Part shown: positions 39,164-55,809 of the stretch, piece by piece
Numbering within the stretch: the stretch's first letter is position 1
Layout of the letters: every line of letters starts with the position of its first letter
DNA from: a virus
Strand: one strand, 5' to 3'
DNA length: 64,000 nucleotides
Virus record (IMG/VR): IMGVR_UViG_3300028388_001808
Coordinates: 29,734 to 93,733 of that record
Notes under the pieces: model-generated
What the model was told of the DNA's origin: nothing
Database searches by the model: none
What the model saw: only the letters and a program-made list of their open reading frames with translations
Program-made: the position numbers and the translations under genes

Positions 39164-39803
39164 GATCGTACACCCTTCCTGGGAACCGATCTTCTCTGAA
39201 CTTGAACCACAGTTAGAACACATCCGAAGAACGCTACCTAAGTTAAGACCCTACTATCCTACACCTGACAAAATCTTTGCAGCATTTAAAGTGCCATTAG
39301 ATAGTGTCAGCGTAGTCATAGTAGGTCAAGACCCTTATCCAAGAAAAGGGTACAGCACAGGTATAGCTTTTGCAGTACCTGAAGCTATTGGTACTTCCCC
39401 AACACTAGAGATTATCTTTGACACTGTCGCAATCGACACTTACAATATTGCCTACGAAGGTGATTGTACGCTGACGAACTGGACAAATCAAGGAATCCTG
39501 CTACTGAATTCTGCCCTGACAGTCAAGCCGAATAACCCGGATCATAAATCGCATGTCACTCTATGGCATGGATTTATGTACAAGTTGTTTGAGTTGATAA
39601 CTGATCAGAGAAGGGATTTATTGTGGCTACTGTGGGGAGACAGAGCTAAAAAGCTGGGTACGGCAATAAAAGGAGACAAACTGACTGCGGTGCATCCTGT
39701 GTACGATCATTACCAGATCGTACCCAGATTCAGAGAAGAGCATCATTTCAGGAAAACAAACGAGTGGCTAGATGCAAAGGGCAAGCCACAAATTCAATGG
39801 TAA
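39153..39803 (+). CDS. ung: Uracil-DNA glycosylase, family 1-like
   Basis: A 216-residue enzyme with the water-activating loop VGQDPYP (Asp60), the strand NQGILLLNSALT, and a C-terminal HPVYDHY segment replacing the usual HPSPLS Leu-loop. It removes uracil from DNA; crAss-like phages often carry one. It lies between the primase and the ubiquitin-like cluster and overlaps the primase gene. Confidence 0.88.
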   Translation: MLPKIVHPSWEPIFSELEPQLEHIRRTLPKLRPYYPTPDKIFAAFKVPLDSVSVVIVGQDPYPRKGYSTGIAFAVPEAIGTSPTLEIIFDTVAIDTYNIAYEGDCTLTNWTNQGILLLNSALTVKPNNPDHKSHVTLWHGFMYKLFELITDQRRDLLWLLWGDRAKKLGTAIKGDKLTAVHPVYDHYQIVPRFREEHHFRKTNEWLDAKGKPQIQW

Positions 39804-39838: not shown

Positions 39839-40738
39839 ATGTCTGAACAAGTAACAGCAGGGTTGATCACCCTCATGGCTGTCTATTCCGGTGCAAAGGT
39901 CTACAAGATCGAATTGGGAGACGGCGAACAAATCAAAAAGCGGTCGGATATCGAACCGTATCTCATTGAGCATGGAATCAATTTTTCCAATGCTGACATG
40001 ATCATCCAGCCGGGAGAAATGGGACTCCCTTCTCCTGATTCAGCCGTTGTTCTGCCGGAAGCAAAGCAAATGACCTATGACGGTCAGGTGCGTATGGTAA
40101 GAGCAATCGGATTGTTCCTTACTCCCACAAAGAATGACTCAGGCGCACGTGTCAACATTGACGGTGCAGAAAATTCCTGGATTCGCTCAGAAGCAAAACG
40201 CCTCTACAAATCCGGAGATGCCGGAAAGGCCCATTTTACCAAAGATGGAAAACCGTACAATTCCGTTTCGACCGATGACCTTCGTGGGCTTCTGAAATCC
40301 TGGTATGCCAAAGAGGAAGCAGGAGAAGCTACAACAGTCGTTGAAGAAGAACAGACTACCAATCTGACCTACAGCAACGAAGCTGAAATCCTGGAGGCCG
40401 TTTCCAAAACGGTTGAGGATAGTTTTCAAATCCTCACACTGACCTGCAACACGCTGAATGATCTGAACGAAGTCCGGGTAGAGACGATCTGCGATACGCA
40501 GTCGAAGGCCGATCTTCCTGATCTCATCGGAGGCATTTCTACTGTTCTGGATAGCCTGAAAGGCTACAAACAACAGGTAGACACCGATGCCGCTGCGTGT
40601 AGGGAAGAAATCGCCCGCCGGGAGGCTGCCGCAAAAGCAGCCAAGGAGAATGTACAGGAAACGACAACTCCTGTAGGTTCACTTGGAGACGTATTTGGAG
40701 CATTCCAGAAACGTTACGACAGCCGCTACCGTAAGTAG
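39839..40738 (+). CDS. Abundant replication-module protein, possible beta-grasp N-terminus
   Basis: A 299-residue protein. Residues ~8-100 follow a strand-strand-helix-strand order (LITLMAVYSGAKVYKIELGD, DIEPYLIEHG, ADMIIQPG, VRAIGLFLTPT). This would fit a beta-grasp (ubiquitin-like) fold. The middle has a SAP-like basic helix pair (WIRSEAKRLYKSG). The rest is a long coiled coil ending RYDSRYRK, with no Gly-Gly end. High-GC codon use and its own terminator suggest strong expression. The ubiquitin-like idea is speculative. Confidence 0.5.
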   Translation: MSEQVTAGLITLMAVYSGAKVYKIELGDGEQIKKRSDIEPYLIEHGINFSNADMIIQPGEMGLPSPDSAVVLPEAKQMTYDGQVRMVRAIGLFLTPTKNDSGARVNIDGAENSWIRSEAKRLYKSGDAGKAHFTKDGKPYNSVSTDDLRGLLKSWYAKEEAGEATTVVEEEQTTNLTYSNEAEILEAVSKTVEDSFQILTLTCNTLNDLNEVRVETICDTQSKADLPDLIGGISTVLDSLKGYKQQVDTDAAACREEIARREAAAKAAKENVQETTTPVGSLGDVFGAFQKRYDSRYRK

Positions 40739-40764
40739 GACCAGGTAGACATTTTCTAATGCTT

Positions 40765-40800
40765 AGAAAGGGGTGGTGTAAAAGCTACCCCTTTCTTTTT
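40765..40800 (+). terminator. Intrinsic terminator
   Basis: Perfect 10-bp stem AGAAAGGGGT/ACCCCTTTCT followed by T residues, between the previous gene and the E2-like gene. Partial read-through would link the two. Confidence 0.85.
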
Positions 40801-40811
40801 AATCAAAAACT

Positions 40812-42026
40812 ATGGACAGAAAGGCATACGTTGAAGCACAGACAAAGATGCTGAACAAGAGACACAAAATCGTACAGCAAGACGATGATATCTTTAACAT
40901 TTGCGTGCATCTTGGAGACGTGAAGTACAGGTCTACTAACGAAGAAATGCAATGGGAGCATACCCTTAAAGGGACGTACGTTATGTTTTCCATAACATTT
41001 ACTACTGGAGAGGAAGGAGAAGAACGTATACAGGCAATAGTTCCAAATCTAGCAAGAACGGATTTCTACAGAGATGAGTACGAACAAGGATGGACTCACG
41101 GACACGTAGGAAGTAGAAGAATAGGCAGTTTTGCTGCTTTCTGTATAGGAGCTAATAGTGATGTAGACAAGATAACGAAACTAATCACTTCGGAAACTAT
41201 CACAGAAAGTAATGACGTGCTATACTACTATATGACTTCGTTTATAAACGGATGCGTTCCTTGGGAATACAAGTCTGGAGTCTATATATCATATCTTAGC
41301 ATGTTGGAAAACCAATCATCTAGTACTAGAAGCTACTTTCCTCCGAATAACCAGTACTACAATACCAGAAGAACGCAAGAAGTCAGCAACAAAAACCTAC
41401 TAAAGTTGCTATCCGAGACTTCTATAGTTTTGGATGAAGATGACGTTGGATTGATAGTAAACGACAAAGTCGTAGAAATAAAACCCACAAAAAAGCTAGT
41501 AGAGAAGCTGTCTTTTCTTCTCATCAGCAAGCTAAATCAAAGCACACAGGAGGATACTACTAGACTGAAAGACTTAGCAGACACGTTACTCTACGTACAG
41601 TGTGAAGACGGTTACAAATACAAATTTAGTTATTACTACACAGTCATAATAAAGAGTAATCCGATACCGTCGATAAGGGAACAGATAAGACAACTGGAAG
41701 AAGGACAGGAAAGAGAACTAGAGGTAGAAGATGCTAACATGACTCTTGCTATCTTCGACAAAGAAGTTCCTATAAAGATACATGAAAGAAATGACAGTAA
41801 CGTTAATGAAATCGAGTATCTAAAGTCTAAATTATTACATTACCAAACACTCCAATCAGGAGAAATTAAACCAACATTTAATGGAATCTTTCAAATTACA
41901 CCAGTTTACGTCACGTATGCTACAAGGAAGTACTTCGACGCATACGTACAACAAGCAGGGAATGCTGATCCAGAGTCAGGAGAAAGTGAAGGTGATATTG
42001 AACAAGCAGTTTCAGAAACATCTTGA
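40812..42026 (+). CDS. Possible E2-like (RWD-fold) protein
   Basis: A 404-residue protein. Strands at ~55-80 (TYVMFSITFTTGEEGEERIQ) are followed by GWTHGHVGSRRIGSFAAFCI with His96, His98 and Cys111. This recalls the H-P-H-[VI] ... C-[LI]-G arrangement of prokaryotic E2-like proteins, in which the Cys accepts the modifier. The remaining 290 residues have no known fold. It precedes and overlaps a JAMM peptidase and an E1-like gene, which supports the idea. A purely structural protein remains possible. Confidence 0.4.
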   Translation: MDRKAYVEAQTKMLNKRHKIVQQDDDIFNICVHLGDVKYRSTNEEMQWEHTLKGTYVMFSITFTTGEEGEERIQAIVPNLARTDFYRDEYEQGWTHGHVGSRRIGSFAAFCIGANSDVDKITKLITSETITESNDVLYYYMTSFINGCVPWEYKSGVYISYLSMLENQSSSTRSYFPPNNQYYNTRRTQEVSNKNLLKLLSETSIVLDEDDVGLIVNDKVVEIKPTKKLVEKLSFLLISKLNQSTQEDTTRLKDLADTLLYVQCEDGYKYKFSYYYTVIIKSNPIPSIREQIRQLEEGQERELEVEDANMTLAIFDKEVPIKIHERNDSNVNEIEYLKSKLLHYQTLQSGEIKPTFNGIFQITPVYVTYATRKYFDAYVQQAGNADPESGESEGDIEQAVSETS

Positions 42027-43053
42027 AGATGTTCTGGACTTCTACAAAAGTAAGATACCTTACAACGAATGGAGTGGAGCAGTCATCTACAAGGTAGAAG
42101 GGAATTTCAACGATGAATCCTTTACTATCATTCCGACTGAAATCTACCCCATATCTGACGGAAGCCCTGGATACACGGACTACATGCTGGCAGAAGATGC
42201 GCCGGAGGTAACATCTTATATGTTCGAATCCGGACTGCTACCGCCTGATTATGCATGGGGACACATACACAGCCACCATAACATGCAAGCTTACTTCTCG
42301 CAGACAGACGATGCCGAACTGGCAAAGAATACAGATATGTATGGTCTGTATTTTTCCATGATCGTAAACAACAGATATGATGTTGTAGCGAGATTATCAA
42401 GAGAAGTGATACTAGACTGCAAAGTTTTACTGAATGGCGAAAATGCTCCTACAGAGCCTTTTGATAGAACACATCTTCCAAAGGTGTCTGTGGTATATGA
42501 TGCCATCGTAGAACGCGAAGTCTCTCAATTACCTCTGAGTAAACGATTGACGAAAGCCCTGGAGAAGTCTCTCGGTATTTCGAAAAAACGCAGCAATGTT
42601 GAATTTCCGGGACTTCAGGGAAAACTGTTCAACGCACCATCCAAAATCCAGAACGATTACCAGCAAATTCAACCTAACTGGACTAACGGAAAAGGTAAAG
42701 TTTCATCTACAGTAGATGGGCTTTTGAACGCTCCAAAAGCGAATTCAGAACTGGTAAGAAAGGACAGCCTGTATTACAGACAAACAGTAGAGGACTATAT
42801 CTACGACTGTCTCGTACAGACACTGGTGGAACCCGTACCTGAAGAGTCTTTGTACTTTGTGCTGGACAAGCTGGATCAAATAGAAAGTCAGACTTTTGTA
42901 GATTTTCTTGACAGTAACTACGGTATGGAGTTGCTGGAAGTTAACGGAGGATTCGAGTCTTTAAGTGAAGACATCAAAATCCTTCTGAAGAAACACAAAG
43001 TTAAAAATCCTCACCTCACAAAATTACTACTAAAATGGAAACAAGATTTGTAG
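41962..43053 (+). CDS. JAB/MPN (JAMM) metallopeptidase
   Basis: A 363-residue protein if started at the ATG at 41962; longer starts run deep into the upstream gene. The full JAMM site is present: Glu36 in NEWSGAV, then HSHHNMQAYFSQTD with His103, His105, Ser113 and Asp116. JAMM enzymes remove ubiquitin-like modifiers or mature their C-termini. The C-terminal 200 residues are unknown. It overlaps the E2-like gene by 65 bases and the E1-like gene by 19, a tight operon. Confidence 0.85.
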   Translation: MLIQSQEKVKVILNKQFQKHLEDVLDFYKSKIPYNEWSGAVIYKVEGNFNDESFTIIPTEIYPISDGSPGYTDYMLAEDAPEVTSYMFESGLLPPDYAWGHIHSHHNMQAYFSQTDDAELAKNTDMYGLYFSMIVNNRYDVVARLSREVILDCKVLLNGENAPTEPFDRTHLPKVSVVYDAIVEREVSQLPLSKRLTKALEKSLGISKKRSNVEFPGLQGKLFNAPSKIQNDYQQIQPNWTNGKGKVSSTVDGLLNAPKANSELVRKDSLYYRQTVEDYIYDCLVQTLVEPVPEESLYFVLDKLDQIESQTFVDFLDSNYGMELLEVNGGFESLSEDIKILLKKHKVKNPHLTKLLLKWKQDL

Positions 43054-43856
43054 ATGCTCAATGGTTCAAAAAAGCTACTGAACAGAAAGTAGTAATAGTT
43101 GGACTTGGTGGAATCGGTTCTTGGGCAGCGTTGGCATTAGCCAGATTAGAAGTCGATAAGCTTATTTTACTTGACTTTGATGTTCTTGAGGAACATAACA
43201 CAGGAAGTCAACTTTGCTCTTTCTCTCAAATGGGCGACATAAAATCGTATGCGCTAAGTACGTTAATTTCCAGACTCACGAGACAAACAAACACATCCAT
43301 AATAGCCAAAAACGCTAAGGTGAACGAAAGTTCAACATTAGGTTACTGCCTTGGCTATAGCAGAGATGTGGATGTGGTTCTTGCTGCTACAGACAACATA
43401 GAATCAAGAAGTTTGATTTTTAGTCATTTTTTGGACATTGTAGGGATAAATGAGTCGATGTTTCACCTTTTACCAGACAGTAGGATACAGCATAAAAAAA
43501 AGATTTACCTGGATGCAAGAATGACCGCAGAGTTTTTCGAGTTATATGCTGTTCCTTTCAACAGAATCTCTATCGCCGCGTACAAAAGTACGCTGTTTCA
43601 ACCAGAGGAGTCAGAACAGTTACCATGTGGATACCAACAGACTAGCCACACAGGTATGATCCTCGGAGGCCTGATTGCTTCTGTTTTGGTTAATTTTTGT
43701 ACAACGCTAGATGAAGAGCAATTTCTCAATTTCAGAGAAATTCCTTTCAAGACTACAATGAACTTGCAGACATTATCAATCACAAAACAATCAGCTTATG
43801 AGGTTCTTGACAGAAATAGAGAAGACGGCACCTACGGATGGGAAGAGGATCAATAA
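43035..43856 (+). CDS. E1-like (ThiF/MoeB) adenylating enzyme
   Basis: A 273-residue protein with nucleotide loop GLGGIGS (23-29), DFDVLEEHN (Asp47, Asp49, Asn55), Lys70, and ATDNIESR (118-125) as in ThiF/E1 enzymes. Cys198 in LPCGYQQT is a good candidate for the thioester cysteine. It would adenylate the C-terminus of a ubiquitin-like protein. It overlaps both the JAMM gene and the next gene. Confidence 0.87.
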   Translation: METRFVDAQWFKKATEQKVVIVGLGGIGSWAALALARLEVDKLILLDFDVLEEHNTGSQLCSFSQMGDIKSYALSTLISRLTRQTNTSIIAKNAKVNESSTLGYCLGYSRDVDVVLAATDNIESRSLIFSHFLDIVGINESMFHLLPDSRIQHKKKIYLDARMTAEFFELYAVPFNRISIAAYKSTLFQPEESEQLPCGYQQTSHTGMILGGLIASVLVNFCTTLDEEQFLNFREIPFKTTMNLQTLSITKQSAYEVLDRNREDGTYGWEEDQ

Positions 43857-44610
43857 GATAGTAGACGGGGCATTAAACAAACTGTTACCAAGAGTCCTCC
43901 AACCTCGTGAAGGTGTAACTGCCATAGGAAGTTCGAAGAAGGATTTCCTTCCACTTACTGCGATCCACAGAAGTAAAAAAACAGCACTCGACAAGAAAGT
44001 AAACGGAGTTGCAGCTACAAGTGATTTTTTTGTTTCTCCTTTTCACTATCTGTCCGGTTACAGATTTGAAGGTATAGATGAAATGCTTTATAGTCCTGGT
44101 ATGTCTGGTTCTGGTTATGCGAAGAATTTCTACTTTTTTAAAGTTAATTCCTCTTCGGATATTGACTTGATAACAAACAGAAATTCAATTTGCAAATTCA
44201 GAAATGGGAGTACACTGGTATCCGAGAATTTGGTTTTCTATAACGTTGATTTTAGAAACGAAGAGATTATCATACTTTGTATGTTTGTAGTCGAGAAATC
44301 TTATCTAACAGATAAGTTCTTTTCAGATTATAACAACACAGTAATCGACTCCACTAAATGTAAACTTCTAATGGACGCTTCTGTAAAAGGAAAAAGCCTA
44401 CAAAGCAGAGCATTGCAGGAAGTTGCAGAGCAAATGAAGCAAATGAACATAGATGTCAGAATAGTAGAGAATCTTACGACAGAGTACTATGATATCAATA
44501 TGTTTCAAATTACCAGAAACACACTATCTGTACTACAAAACATTGAAAAGCAGGACACGATAGGTGTGATAAACAAATTCATGTATGATCATCGAACAGA
44601 TAATAGCTAG
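43798..44610 (+). CDS. Unknown protein of the E1/JAMM cluster
   Basis: A 270-residue protein with a beta-rich middle (FYFFKVNSSSDIDLITNRNS and ENLVFYNVDFRNEEII) and a helical C-terminus. It starts 59 bases inside the E1-like gene and overlaps the next gene by 26, so it is co-translated. PRTRC clusters of conjugative elements have an extra protein in a similar position, but sequence similarity is not visible to me. Confidence 0.6.
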   Translation: MRFLTEIEKTAPTDGKRINKIVDGALNKLLPRVLQPREGVTAIGSSKKDFLPLTAIHRSKKTALDKKVNGVAATSDFFVSPFHYLSGYRFEGIDEMLYSPGMSGSGYAKNFYFFKVNSSSDIDLITNRNSICKFRNGSTLVSENLVFYNVDFRNEEIIILCMFVVEKSYLTDKFFSDYNNTVIDSTKCKLLMDASVKGKSLQSRALQEVAEQMKQMNIDVRIVENLTTEYYDINMFQITRNTLSVLQNIEKQDTIGVINKFMYDHRTDNS

Positions 44611-45253
44611 TGAGATCGAAAGGATCAAAGAAGGAATACCTGTAAAGCTGGGAAAAGTGTATCTTAACAAAAGTTACAGATACCTTTATCCCATGCTAAA
44701 ACTTTGTAAGGGAGAACTTTACGACAAAGTAAAGCTGCTTCCTAAACTTGGAGTAGGTATAGGGGATGTCGTATACATCGAAAAAAATAACATAATTCTA
44801 ACATCAGAATTATTTATTCTTGTAGATACAAAGGGAAGCTACGAGAATGGGAGGCACAAAAACGCAACCCAATCTCAGTTGAGATTTGCAGAGTTTCTGA
44901 ATTGGTTTAGAAATTCTGAGTATCTTCGAGACGATTACATATATGACAGCCTTGAAGGACACATGCACATGCTGGTATTGAAGATACCGGAGGACGTACC
45001 TCATGCGATAAGAGCATTCGTATTAGGTAAATACGACATGATTTACACAGATAGCCAAGCTAGAACTATTTTTGATACTAAAAGTGTCGAGTTCAAAGTA
45101 GTCACGAATGATAAAGCACTGAGGAAATCTATAACCAATAAGATAAAAGAACTTGTTGGTTTAGAGACACTTGAAGACATACCAGGAATGACAAGTAAGC
45201 CCAAATTCGAATGGGAGATTTTCAAAACAAGAAAAGCAATAACTGATGGCTAA
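44585..45253 (+). CDS. Unknown protein of the E1/JAMM cluster
   Basis: A 222-residue protein with strands at VKLGKVYLNKSY, DVVYIEKNNIIL and a His-rich HMHMLVLKIPED near 131. It has no recognised domain. It overlaps its neighbours by 26 and 8 bases and closes the putative modifier cluster before the Holliday-junction resolvase gene. Confidence 0.6.
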   Translation: MIIEQIIASEIERIKEGIPVKLGKVYLNKSYRYLYPMLKLCKGELYDKVKLLPKLGVGIGDVVYIEKNNIILTSELFILVDTKGSYENGRHKNATQSQLRFAEFLNWFRNSEYLRDDYIYDSLEGHMHMLVLKIPEDVPHAIRAFVLGKYDMIYTDSQARTIFDTKSVEFKVVTNDKALRKSITNKIKELVGLETLEDIPGMTSKPKFEWEIFKTRKAITDG

Positions 45254-45668
45254 TAGAAACAGGACAGCCGGACATAATTGGGAAAGAGAAGTAGCTAAGA
45301 TGTTAAGGGATTTATTTCCGGACATTGCAACATCCAGATACTCCTCTAGGGAAATAGATGACAGTGGGGTAGATTTTGTAAGAACAGGAGATTTCAAGTT
45401 TCAGGCAAAAAGTACGATGAAGGCTCCAAGTTATCACAATCTTCTCACTGAAATGGGTTCCGGCTTTCCTGTCATTCTACATAAACTGACAGGGAAAGGA
45501 ACAGGAAAAAAGTCCAAAGGGAAGATACTAATCCCAAAAGGGAATTACGCCATTATGAAAATGGAACATTTTGTAGAACTCTTAAAACAGCTAAAAGAAC
45601 ATGGAATTGAACTTGAAAGACCTATTCTCCCAGAACATTCCGGTAAGGGACAGGATAGAGGAGTATAG
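45246..45668 (+). CDS. Holliday-junction-resolvase-like nuclease (Hjc type)
   Basis: A 140-residue protein with the restriction-endonuclease fold signature: GHNWEREVAK (Glu13), a TSRYSS segment, GVDFV (Asp43), and FQAKST (Gln53, Lys55). These match archaeal Hjc-type resolvases used by phages to cut branched DNA before packaging. It overlaps the next nuclease gene by 68 bases. Confidence 0.78.
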   Translation: MANRNRTAGHNWEREVAKMLRDLFPDIATSRYSSREIDDSGVDFVRTGDFKFQAKSTMKAPSYHNLLTEMGSGFPVILHKLTGKGTGKKSKGKILIPKGNYAIMKMEHFVELLKQLKEHGIELERPILPEHSGKGQDRGV

Positions 45669-54500: not shown

Positions 54501-55809
54501 TGATAAGCTGTTTCCTTCTTGGACTTGTGGCAGCTTCTTCCATAGCCTCACGGAAGCCAGTAACAAGATATCGTTTAGCTGCTTCGAAGTTAGCTGAATA
54601 TCTGGTAATCAGATGTCCGGTTTCTCTCTCCTCTCCTTTTATTGGCCTGACGTACTTTTGCTTGAAGATGTCGAACTTTACCCCTATTCCACCTACGCCT
54701 ACTTCTCCCATCCTGCGTAGTTCGGCTTCAGCATCTTGTACCACAGTATTGATACGATCAATTAGTTCTTTTGCCTCTGACCATGCTTTTTCGTTCTCTT
54801 CGTGTATCAGTGATACCATGAGTTGAGCTAACTCAGGATTACCTGCGGTAGGATCAAGAAAGTTCGCAACCAGTGCATTTACATCAGGAGCGGCCTTTGT
54901 CAACTCTTCAAAGTTCAAAGGTTGAGCAAGAGGGTCACGTCCTCTTCTTTTTAATGTCTCTTGAATAAGTCTGTTGTTTCTAGCAACGTTAACCAAAACA
55001 TTCTGAAGCTTTGTCTTCAACTTACCATTAGATGCTAAAGCTTCCGCTGCTATGGCTTCAAAAGGCTTTCTGTAACTGTCTCTTAGACGTAACTGACCAG
55101 TTGCCCTGTTTACAATCTCGTTTTCTGTAAACAGGATGTGTCCTATTTCAGCAGCTTCTGCAAAGTTTCCAATATGACTATACAAGTCAATAAGGTCAGC
55201 AGCCTCTTTCAGATCACGTACCTCATTCGAGTTTACCAGCTTTCTAATCCTTTCCATATCTCTGGATGCGATAGAGTTGACATTACCAGAGAATATAGCT
55301 CTGAATAGAAACTCAGCAGGAGCGTTTTGTGTACCAGCATTAACAAGCTGATCTACTTCTTCCTGAGTCCTTTCTACCCTGTCAGTTAGATCGTGAATAC
55401 TTTTGTAATACGCTCTAATTTTTGGAAGATCGGCAGGATTCCCCTTTTGTTCCAATTGAGTCAGTGCGTCCTTTTGTTCAGCAATCCAACTATTCAGACG
55501 CTTTATATTGCGTTTCTTAATGCCTATGACAGCATCAAATCGCTTCTCGGTTATATCAGGACCAAAACCACCGCTATTAGTCGTAGCTGAACTGACAGGG
55601 GCAAAAAGCGAGTCCTGTGAATGAAAACTTGCTACAGATTGAATAGATGGTTCTCCATTACTATCAAGCTTGTATCTCGATTTATTCGACATAATGTCAA
55701 GATACTTACCCATAGCGTCATCGCCATAGATCACAGCAAGTTTAGCAAACAACACAGAAGGACTTCCATCAGGAGCGGTTACTTTTATCGAACATCCCAT
55801 TTTACTCAC
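51526..55809 (-). CDS. Giant virion-packaged protein (transcription module partner)
   Basis: A 1427-residue protein. Long charged helices fill the first 900 residues. Around 1010-1060 there is a hydrophobic, Gly-rich stretch (WNLPAVPMNIMAGTVANLGL), and near 1230 a second one (SGLIAGASMGTILVPGIGTV then GALGYGAAAF). Both fit segments that cross or perforate membranes during ejection. The C-terminus is basic. It overlaps the end of the DFDxD protein gene by 8 bases, as in crAss-like phages where giant proteins are packed in the capsid and ejected. No enzyme motif seen. Confidence 0.6.
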   Translation of the reverse strand: MSKMGCSIKVTAPDGSPSVLFAKLAVIYGDDAMGKYLDIMSNKSRYKLDSNGEPSIQSVASFHSQDSLFAPVSSATTNSGGFGPDITEKRFDAVIGIKKRNIKRLNSWIAEQKDALTQLEQKGNPADLPKIRAYYKSIHDLTDRVERTQEEVDQLVNAGTQNAPAEFLFRAIFSGNVNSIASRDMERIRKLVNSNEVRDLKEAADLIDLYSHIGNFAEAAEIGHILFTENEIVNRATGQLRLRDSYRKPFEAIAAEALASNGKLKTKLQNVLVNVARNNRLIQETLKRRGRDPLAQPLNFEELTKAAPDVNALVANFLDPTAGNPELAQLMVSLIHEENEKAWSEAKELIDRINTVVQDAEAELRRMGEVGVGGIGVKFDIFKQKYVRPIKGEERETGHLITRYSANFEAAKRYLVTGFREAMEEAATSPRRKQLIKDAYKKRNRWYKSNLILVDPNRIASIVNDRKYVSLSKGPSYAPAEMQAHEDELVRHLGSREALDDIIHKSRKQLNQYLIHRDIVIEQISTQPPASRQNPVPFQNWTVEMRQKLEFWELANNPFLIPEQDSFVSLRKYQPNGEYIRPAYERFAVSIPRRFKADVRVVNGMYVVKDHPSGEKTIWYDPNFEKIENNKPLYDFYKTMIDTIETVNRTLPPDLQRNMRNNSLIAIQKSVLEGFISDGGNYLEALGTIGASGVKFMDFVRNTVTQDRADTPKPEYNPITGEMEQSVNSAFLGNRDREVEELKKIMDLRWEQQNGGQKIPLSQRQIHERLAQDQVAKKYSFDVTKILQMYAVLGLQYAHRERILPVMKILKDHYKDIQKPYQQTGIFTVLRRGKNTVDNVESMRRTQANLQIEDWFKRAVLGDYTNFDEGKTKKRIYKSKEAKQKAKEIQELIDNESDPNKVEELETMLEDQMSNVTGSGTIDLLLHALRLKGMGWNLPAVPMNIMAGTVANLGLASDGRVVSWQSIWRAYRIVLGNMMKALTFGKVSTEEARKNTILMDKYKVLQDATNEFQKAGQSSKITSKFDPLNPYEPVTRGEFINQSTIMMGLLMDTKITGIDGTVSSVWDALKEDGTLKDNFNTTQHNEDWVLMRGENYNNFKVKLNKAIVVTHGDYDTLRGMKAKRSILGRMATMFRTWLPRAYYTRFGGEQEDIELGHITKGRYRSYTPASGLIAGASMGTILVPGIGTVVGGALGYGAAAFTGVKAGTFGEDLMFTTKQLLRKLAGKSTQFDDKFSEVDAANLRANLTELVMLMSMFTAYLMTKMFLWDDDDERDDPKRKAHNLLANYTMRMMGDVMMFTSPMGFNELQSNILPIASMIGRTARVMDYFMKMLNGEHIIPTGYNAGENGFINAVEDAFIPNAFVGIMELDPTLGYDKITKRQFKTTRWDKMFYSEERKQKNQRQRENAKKRKEKREAENQPWWKAGE

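Follow-up and report, generated by a model that had tools for sequence, protein, structure and literature searches.

A predicted ubiquitin-like conjugation cassette in the replication module of crAss-like phages

Does a bacterial virus, in which a full ubiquitin-type tagging kit would be unexpected, encode one among its own replication genes? The question is raised by a locus in a 64,000-nucleotide stretch of viral DNA (bases 29734–93733 of the 93,733-base IMG/VR virus record IMGVR_UViG_3300028388_001808). This whole stretch is referred to as the window, and coordinates are those of the window unless another locus is named. Bacterial ubiquitin-like (Ubl) conjugation is known from host defence, plasmids and integrative and conjugative elements (ICEs). 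An earlier reading of the letters alone (the sequence-only reading) had proposed a phage-encoded cluster of this kind, made up of an E1-like enzyme, an overlapping JAMM peptidase, a protein reminiscent of E2 enzymes and further unknown proteins. In our analysis, positions 39839–43856 were assigned, on a single strand, to a Ubl, an E2/RWD-type protein, a JAMM peptidase and an E1, in that order, and we estimate a probability of roughly 0.76 that these four genes constitute a phage-encoded ubiquitin-like conjugation pathway. The genes and their predicted sites are as follows.

39839..40738, plus strand: Ubl precursor, 299 aa; beta-grasp domain at about residues 6–98, Ser101-Gly102, then a C-terminal extension
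40139..40144, plus strand: Ser-Gly codons, the predicted mature C-terminus of the Ubl; JAMM cleavage predicted after nt 40144
40145..40735, plus strand: C-terminal extension of the Ubl, predicted to be removed; of varying length or absent in relatives
40812..42026, plus strand: E2-like (UBC/RWD-type) protein, 404 aa; HxH at residues 96–98, Cys111-x-Gly113
41142..41144, plus strand: codon of the predicted E2 catalytic Cys111, from conservation and a codon check
41881..43053, plus strand: JAMM/JAB metallopeptidase, 390 aa; E63, H130, H132, S140 and D143
43035..43856, plus strand: E1/ThiF-type adenylating enzyme, 273 aa, single domain (Pfam ThiF); Cys198 at nt 43626–43628

Relatives were collected by alignment-based scans of IMG/VR, which returned contig stretches bearing relatives of the E1 (190) or of the JAMM (331). 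The best 80 of each were fetched, and these loci (numbered with an L) were annotated with profiles of five proteins; the E1-fetched and JAMM-fetched sets share some contigs. Alignments were needed, as a single-sequence scan of viral contigs with the window E1 found nothing. As a control for circularity, profiles were also built without the window sequences and then searched against the window genes. These leave-one-out profiles recovered the Ubl at E 5.6e-18, the JAMM at E 5.5e-49 and the E1 at E 4.3e-60. The E2-like gene was not recovered at default HMMER filters; with the filters off and a better alignment it was recovered at 50.6 bits (E 7.4e-15), against a maximum of 4.4 bits in 500 shuffles.

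What had been claimed of the two overlapping enzymes was borne out by codon check and Pfam, the two open reading frames (ORFs) sharing 19 nt in the window. The E1 carries GLGGIGS at residues 23–29, DFDVLEEHN, TDNIESR and Cys198, and matched Pfam ThiF at E 1.4e-21. Its top family-model score was for thiF_fam2 (E 1.4e-19), and the closest solved structures were those of UBA5, the E1 of UFM1 (E 1.7e-14). The catalytic Cys was present in 121 of 121 homologues having a residue at that column. These E1s measure 228 aa in Flavobacterium phage FpV4 to 273 aa in the window and have a single ThiF domain, to which relatives add N-terminal extensions only. When placed in a tree together with other bacterial ThiF proteins, including those of PRTRC, the phage E1s formed one clade (98/92), with the window E1 on a long branch. 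In the JAMM protein, E63, H130, H132, S140 and D143 make up the motif E...H-x-H-x7-S-x2-D, which was complete in 116 of 123 homologues. The protein matched Prok-JAB at E 4.5e-5, slightly under the curated cut-off, and its closest solved structure was CSN5 (E 4.7e-4).

The JAMM gene is interrupted in several relatives. Group I introns (Rfam RF00028, 66–87 bits) split it at or beside the H-S-H active-site codons in four loci (L013 4752-5054, L041 4136-4348, L042 3540-3799 and L065 3471-3717); in L077 the break falls almost at this position and gave no Rfam match. Introns at active-site codons usually mark strongly conserved genes.

The first gene of the cassette had been counted among the unknown proteins, with the suggestion that it be examined for a beta-grasp domain and that a modifier ending near Gly be sought. 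Both were found in it. The AlphaFold2 (AF2) model shows one beta-grasp domain, the remainder being helical. In VIA, its top structural neighbours were almost all ubiquitin-like folds (Z 6.6–5.9, 70–80 residues aligned), including ubiquitin, UBX, ISG15 and NEDD8 (Z about 6), and Foldseek returned SUMO-2 and similar proteins with a probability of about 0.9. Z values near 6 are moderate, yet the list is nearly uniform in fold, and the gene is predicted to encode a beta-grasp (ubiquitin-like) protein. Alignments of the Ubl and of the E2-like protein, searched against NCBIfam, Pfam and PDB sequences, gave scattered and apparently chance matches and no known family. PHROG 15560, which carries no function, takes in 80 of 91 Ubl relatives and did not match the window Ubl.

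The end of the domain is marked by Gly102, kept in 99% of 121 homologues, and by Ser101, kept in 94% (Ser-Gly was invariant in the first alignment). The ORF stops exactly one residue past the Gly in 7 of the 121, and in most of the others it continues for 59–213 residues. In phage cr106_1 (L005 4725-5928), the Ubl ORF and the extension ORF are separated, at the predicted JAMM cut, by an ORF for an HNH endonuclease, and the Ubl ORF terminates ...KKIKSGKF, two residues beyond the Gly. Because the ORFs either end one residue past the Gly or extend far beyond it, and because of the HNH insertion, this boundary is as expected of a Ubl precursor that would be matured by cleavage after the Gly. Within the extension, a HeH-like segment is weak (E 0.044, in 2 members only) and an acidic tail is recurrent.

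The H-G-H and C-I-G segment that had called E2 proteins to mind is present in the second gene as H96-G-H98 and C111-I-G. In the AF2 model, with a predicted confidence (pLDDT) of about 90 across most of residues 31–150, the core consists of a three-stranded sheet, a loop with the H-x-H and the Cys, and three helices. Over residues 21–168, 20 of the 26 VIA matches were UBC/RWD structures by manual count (Z 2.5–4.7), among them Ubc2b, Ubc9 and UbcH5c. Cys111 was kept in 97% and the second His (H98) in 95% of 131 homologues, and the C-x-G site was present in 122 of 122 long homologues examined. The E2/RWD fold that had been suggested for this gene was thus the one predicted, with a weaker match than the fold of the Ubl. 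Given the low Z values and the lack of any sequence-profile link to Prok-E2_D, the model supports this fold but does not prove it. Among viral models, the top five Foldseek matches were all uncharacterised proteins, some named crAss-like. A tblastn search of phages with the E2-like protein gave no match, and hence this gene diverges fast. The idea that it is a degenerate JAMM, prompted by an HSH motif, was set aside: the structural matches were UBC/RWD with no MPN listed, an absence that is not proof. One locus (L097 4088-6161) has tandem E2-like ORFs, of which the first has H-S-H-P-N...C-T-G, while the second has C-M-G and its His region is altered; they may possibly be an active and an inactive copy.

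Occurrence of JAMM and E1 apart from one another in relatives would have spoken against a cluster. Instead, all four genes were found together in 71 of 72 E1-fetched and 63 of 64 JAMM-fetched loci lying in contig interiors. The order Ubl-E2-JAMM-E1 on one strand was kept in nearly all loci, comprising 119 distinct cassettes by E1 sequence, in 113 of which the E2 and JAMM ORFs overlap. Two loci away from contig edges depart from the four-gene set. In L117 no Ubl was found. In L058 (2995-5755), the Ubl slot holds a Pfam ThiS-like protein (E 1.8e-4) with a C-terminal Ala-Gly, and the E2 slot an unrelated protein with a classical H-P-H-V...P-C-W-G E2 motif; what fills these slots therefore supports the Ubl and E2 assignments. 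This divergent E2-like protein had no relatives in IMG/VR or in phages. The same gene order near primase and uracil-DNA glycosylase (UDG) was seen in FpV4, DAC15, crAss001, cr128_1, cr106_1, cr126_1, cr85_1, cr111_1, PhiCrAssBcn2, Dulem virus 41 and bajarodcaudo virus 1. Placement in a replication module, as proposed, is borne out and is shared by FpV4, crAss001, DAC15 and other genomes. UDG precedes the cassette in the window and FpV4 and follows it in Steigviridae; the four genes therefore travel together as the neighbour moves. The cassette is, in sum, a stronger observation than first claimed.

The window itself derives from a crAss-like virus near Flavobacterium phage FpV4, as judged from its proteins. 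Its capsid protein has 58% identity to the FpV4 capsid, with many crAss-like records also matched, and there are strong matches to phage families for its head, portal and terminase proteins (phrog_11589, E 4.9e-162; phrog_6547, E 6.8e-158; phrog_6681, E 1.5e-127), giving the capsid, portal and terminase set by which crAss-like viruses are recognised. Because of the capsid resemblance and these matches, a host among the Flavobacteriia is likely. In tblastn searches of phages, the window E1 matched 82 records and the window JAMM 74, the latter belonging to phages of Bacteroides and Flavobacterium, to uncultured phages of the gut and to a small number of others. The deposited names in relatives were hypothetical protein, metalloprotease domain protein, thiamine biosynthesis protein, ThiF and, once, E1 enzyme family protein. 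Not all crAss-like phages carry the cassette, since the crAss001 E1 matched 74 phage records and the window capsid 143 (including cr10_1, cr60_1 and crAssphage LMMB). Among 84,980 bacterial and archaeal species genomes, searched with fixed peptide patterns that can miss relatives, the only relative of this kind detected was L171 (1-1635), an E1 with the gene termed gene C below, on a 3.7 kb contig in a Spirochaetia bin; it is probably a stray or misplaced phage contig. Between crAss001 and PhiCrAssBcn2, the ratio of nonsynonymous to synonymous substitution rates was <0.5 where computable, on changes too few to say more.

How does the cassette compare with known Ubl systems? Its gene content is that of BilABCD, the Bil system being antiviral. 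The components of Bil, as described (PMC11354881), are a Ubl, an E2, a JAMM and an E1, each encoded by its own gene, the JAMM trimming the Ubl precursor to a C-terminal Gly. BilA, however, has two Ubl domains, whereas the phage Ubl has one, both in the model and in the standalone relatives. Likewise, BilD combines a Cys domain with two adenylation domains, one inactive and one active, in contrast to the 273-aa phage E1 with its one ThiF domain. The C-E-H-H motif of BilB (Cys138, Glu144, His146 and His151, that is, +6, +8 and +13; PMC11354881) is absent from the phage E2-like protein, where the window sequence following Cys111 is IGANSDVDKITKLI. The cassette also differs from BilABCD in being phage-encoded and within a replication module.

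PRTRC (type 6d of Iyer et al, 2006) has the same set of proteins, and the phage E1 profile is distantly but clearly related to PRTRC ThiF (hhalign 98.3%, E 2.5e-14), but the window E1 scored 27.6 bits against a PRTRC_ThiF cut-off of 144.75. The phage Ubl did not match the PRTRC Ubl (Prok_Ub/PRTRC_C; hhalign E 0.54–0.58, probability <1%), nor did the phage E2 match Prok-E2_D/PRTRC_B (E 0.39–0.73, probability <1%), the best local match falling on the Cys motif. Moreover, the phage E1 clade stands apart from PRTRC, which is found on plasmids and ICEs. For the type II cyclic-oligonucleotide-based antiphage signalling system (CBASS), with Cap2/Cap3, and for the 6A/6B E2-E1-JAB systems, the E1 is related (6A-MBL cap2_3, E 7.4e-10; Cap2 structures, E 7e-7); there E2 and E1 are fused, whereas they are separate genes in the phages. 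The cassette has no nucleotidyltransferase or effector gene, and no CD-NTase was found among the genes from primase to exonuclease. Phage lambda tail assembly also pairs a Ubl with a C-terminal extension (TAPI) with a JAB peptidase (TAPK) (PMC1779556), but without E1 or E2 and in the tail module rather than the replication module. Given the Bil features that are missing, the Ubl and E2 unlike those of PRTRC and the lambda phages without E1 and E2, the cassette is a new phage-borne variant of the prokaryotic Ubl conjugation operons and not Bil, CBASS or PRTRC. The crAss001 genes gp79-gp76 and their FpV4 homologues form this cassette in the order found in the window; the former are deposited as hypothetical, hypothetical, metalloprotease and ThiF, and neither records nor open-access literature label them as a Ubl system. 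A search of the open-access literature, which took in neither preprints nor most subscription papers, turned up no account of this cassette in crAss-like phages, and prior publication is possible.

The features that generally mark a Ubl system, namely a beta-grasp modifier with a C-terminal Gly, an E1 with its motifs and catalytic Cys, and a JAMM active site, are all present, and for a UBC-fold E2 the conserved Cys and the predominance of UBC/RWD matches stand against Z values that stay low. In the pathway that we propose, the Ubl would be made as a precursor in which Ser-Gly is followed by one residue or by a long extension, and the JAMM would cleave it after the Gly. The E1 would then adenylate the Gly carboxylate using ATP and load the Ubl onto its Cys198, from where the E2-like protein would take it on Cys111 and pass it to a target; the JAMM might later strip it off again. 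The location of the cassette in the replication module suggests that the targets are proteins of phage replication or recombination, or else host factors that act on these, although this is a guess. The broader proposal that a complete Ubl pathway is conserved in crAss-like replication modules and covalently marks replisome or recombination proteins in infection, in a SUMO/PCNA-like regulation, is tentative, and we would put it at below even odds.

Several points weigh against conjugation. Neither an E3 nor a target was found. The fold match of the E2-like protein is weak (all Z <5), Foldseek gave no match below E 0.001 to its model in the PDB, no sequence profile ties it to a known E2 family, and its H-x-H and Cys lie further apart, and at a less constant distance, than those of classical E2s. 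The Ubl extensions may serve a function instead of being cut off, and sets of E1, Ubl and JAMM also belong to sulfur-carrier pathways, JAB, ThiS and E1 being known together in sulfur metabolism operons (PMC1779556). On that model the E1 would serve to thiocarboxylate the Ubl, providing sulfur for a modified nucleotide, a tRNA or a DNA base, with the E2-like protein as a thiol enzyme. The known sulfur operons, the best E1 scores against ThiF family models (thiF_fam2) and the tRNA genes present in the window are in its favor, but the genes annotated next to the cassette in relatives include no sulfurtransferase, rhodanese or cysteine desulfurase, the core of the E2-like protein is best matched structurally by UBC/RWD, and the Ubl-E2-JAMM-E1 set agrees with conjugation operons. 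We regard a sulfur carrier as improbable. It is still harder to see the Ubl as an unconjugated scaffold or DNA-binding protein whose N-terminal Ubl domain is merely processed by E1 and JAMM. The long C-terminal part of most Ubl genes, with its weak HeH-like segment and recurrent acidic tail, would fit such a protein, whereas seven Ubl genes consist of the domain plus one residue and the E1 and E2 Cys are conserved throughout; we give this explanation very little weight.

A different question is whether the chemistry proposed here for conjugation is directed at the host instead of at the phage's own replication proteins, either by placing the Ubl on defence proteins or by jamming host Ubl pathways of CBASS or Bil. 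Such a countermeasure would be plausible since bacterial E1/E2/JAMM systems are antiviral, CBASS being one example (PMC10097602). However, the cassette sits in the replication module with its order fixed across phages that have diverged far, whereas counter-defence genes are typically variable, and no tie to any particular defence was found, so that an anti-defence role appears unlikely to us.

If the conjugation pathway is real, a complete Ubl set in a phage replication block would mean that a virus uses such chemistry for its own cycle; four genes with poor annotation in a model gut phage would also acquire a function. The lineage comprises gut and water phages related to crAss, spanning the Steigviridae of the gut and a genus of Flavobacterium psychrophilum phages; with crAss001, DAC15 and FpV4 as cultured members, the proposal is directly testable. 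The natural Ubl extensions, of one residue or long, offer a ready assay for precursor processing.

The surroundings of the cassette agree with the earlier placement between UDG and a Holliday-junction resolvase, both of which were supported. The neighbouring genes are as follows.

39153-39803: UDG, upstream of the cassette, supported by family searches
43798..44610, plus strand: protein after the E1, no assigned function, at the position of gene C of Steigviridae
44585..45253, plus strand: phrog_14962 protein (E 8.7e-17), no assigned function, not a constant cassette member (gene D)
45246-45668: RusA-like resolvase, downstream of the cassette (phrog_244, E 5.5e-7)

The sequence-only reading had extended the cluster to 45253. 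Of its unknown proteins, the one at 39839-40738 is retained as the Ubl, and those at 43798-44610 and 44585-45253 are not supported as members. They were dropped because the gene C profile fails to recover the window gene (10–18% identity in the alignment) and because the FpV4 homologue of gene D sits after the exonuclease, apart from the cassette. Further away, tRNA genes for Met, Arg and Leu lie at 28705-29376, directly ahead of the replication module, and positions 55802-63958 encode a 2718-aa protein that matches both a virion structural protein (phrog_16227) and a Dda-like helicase (phrog_325).

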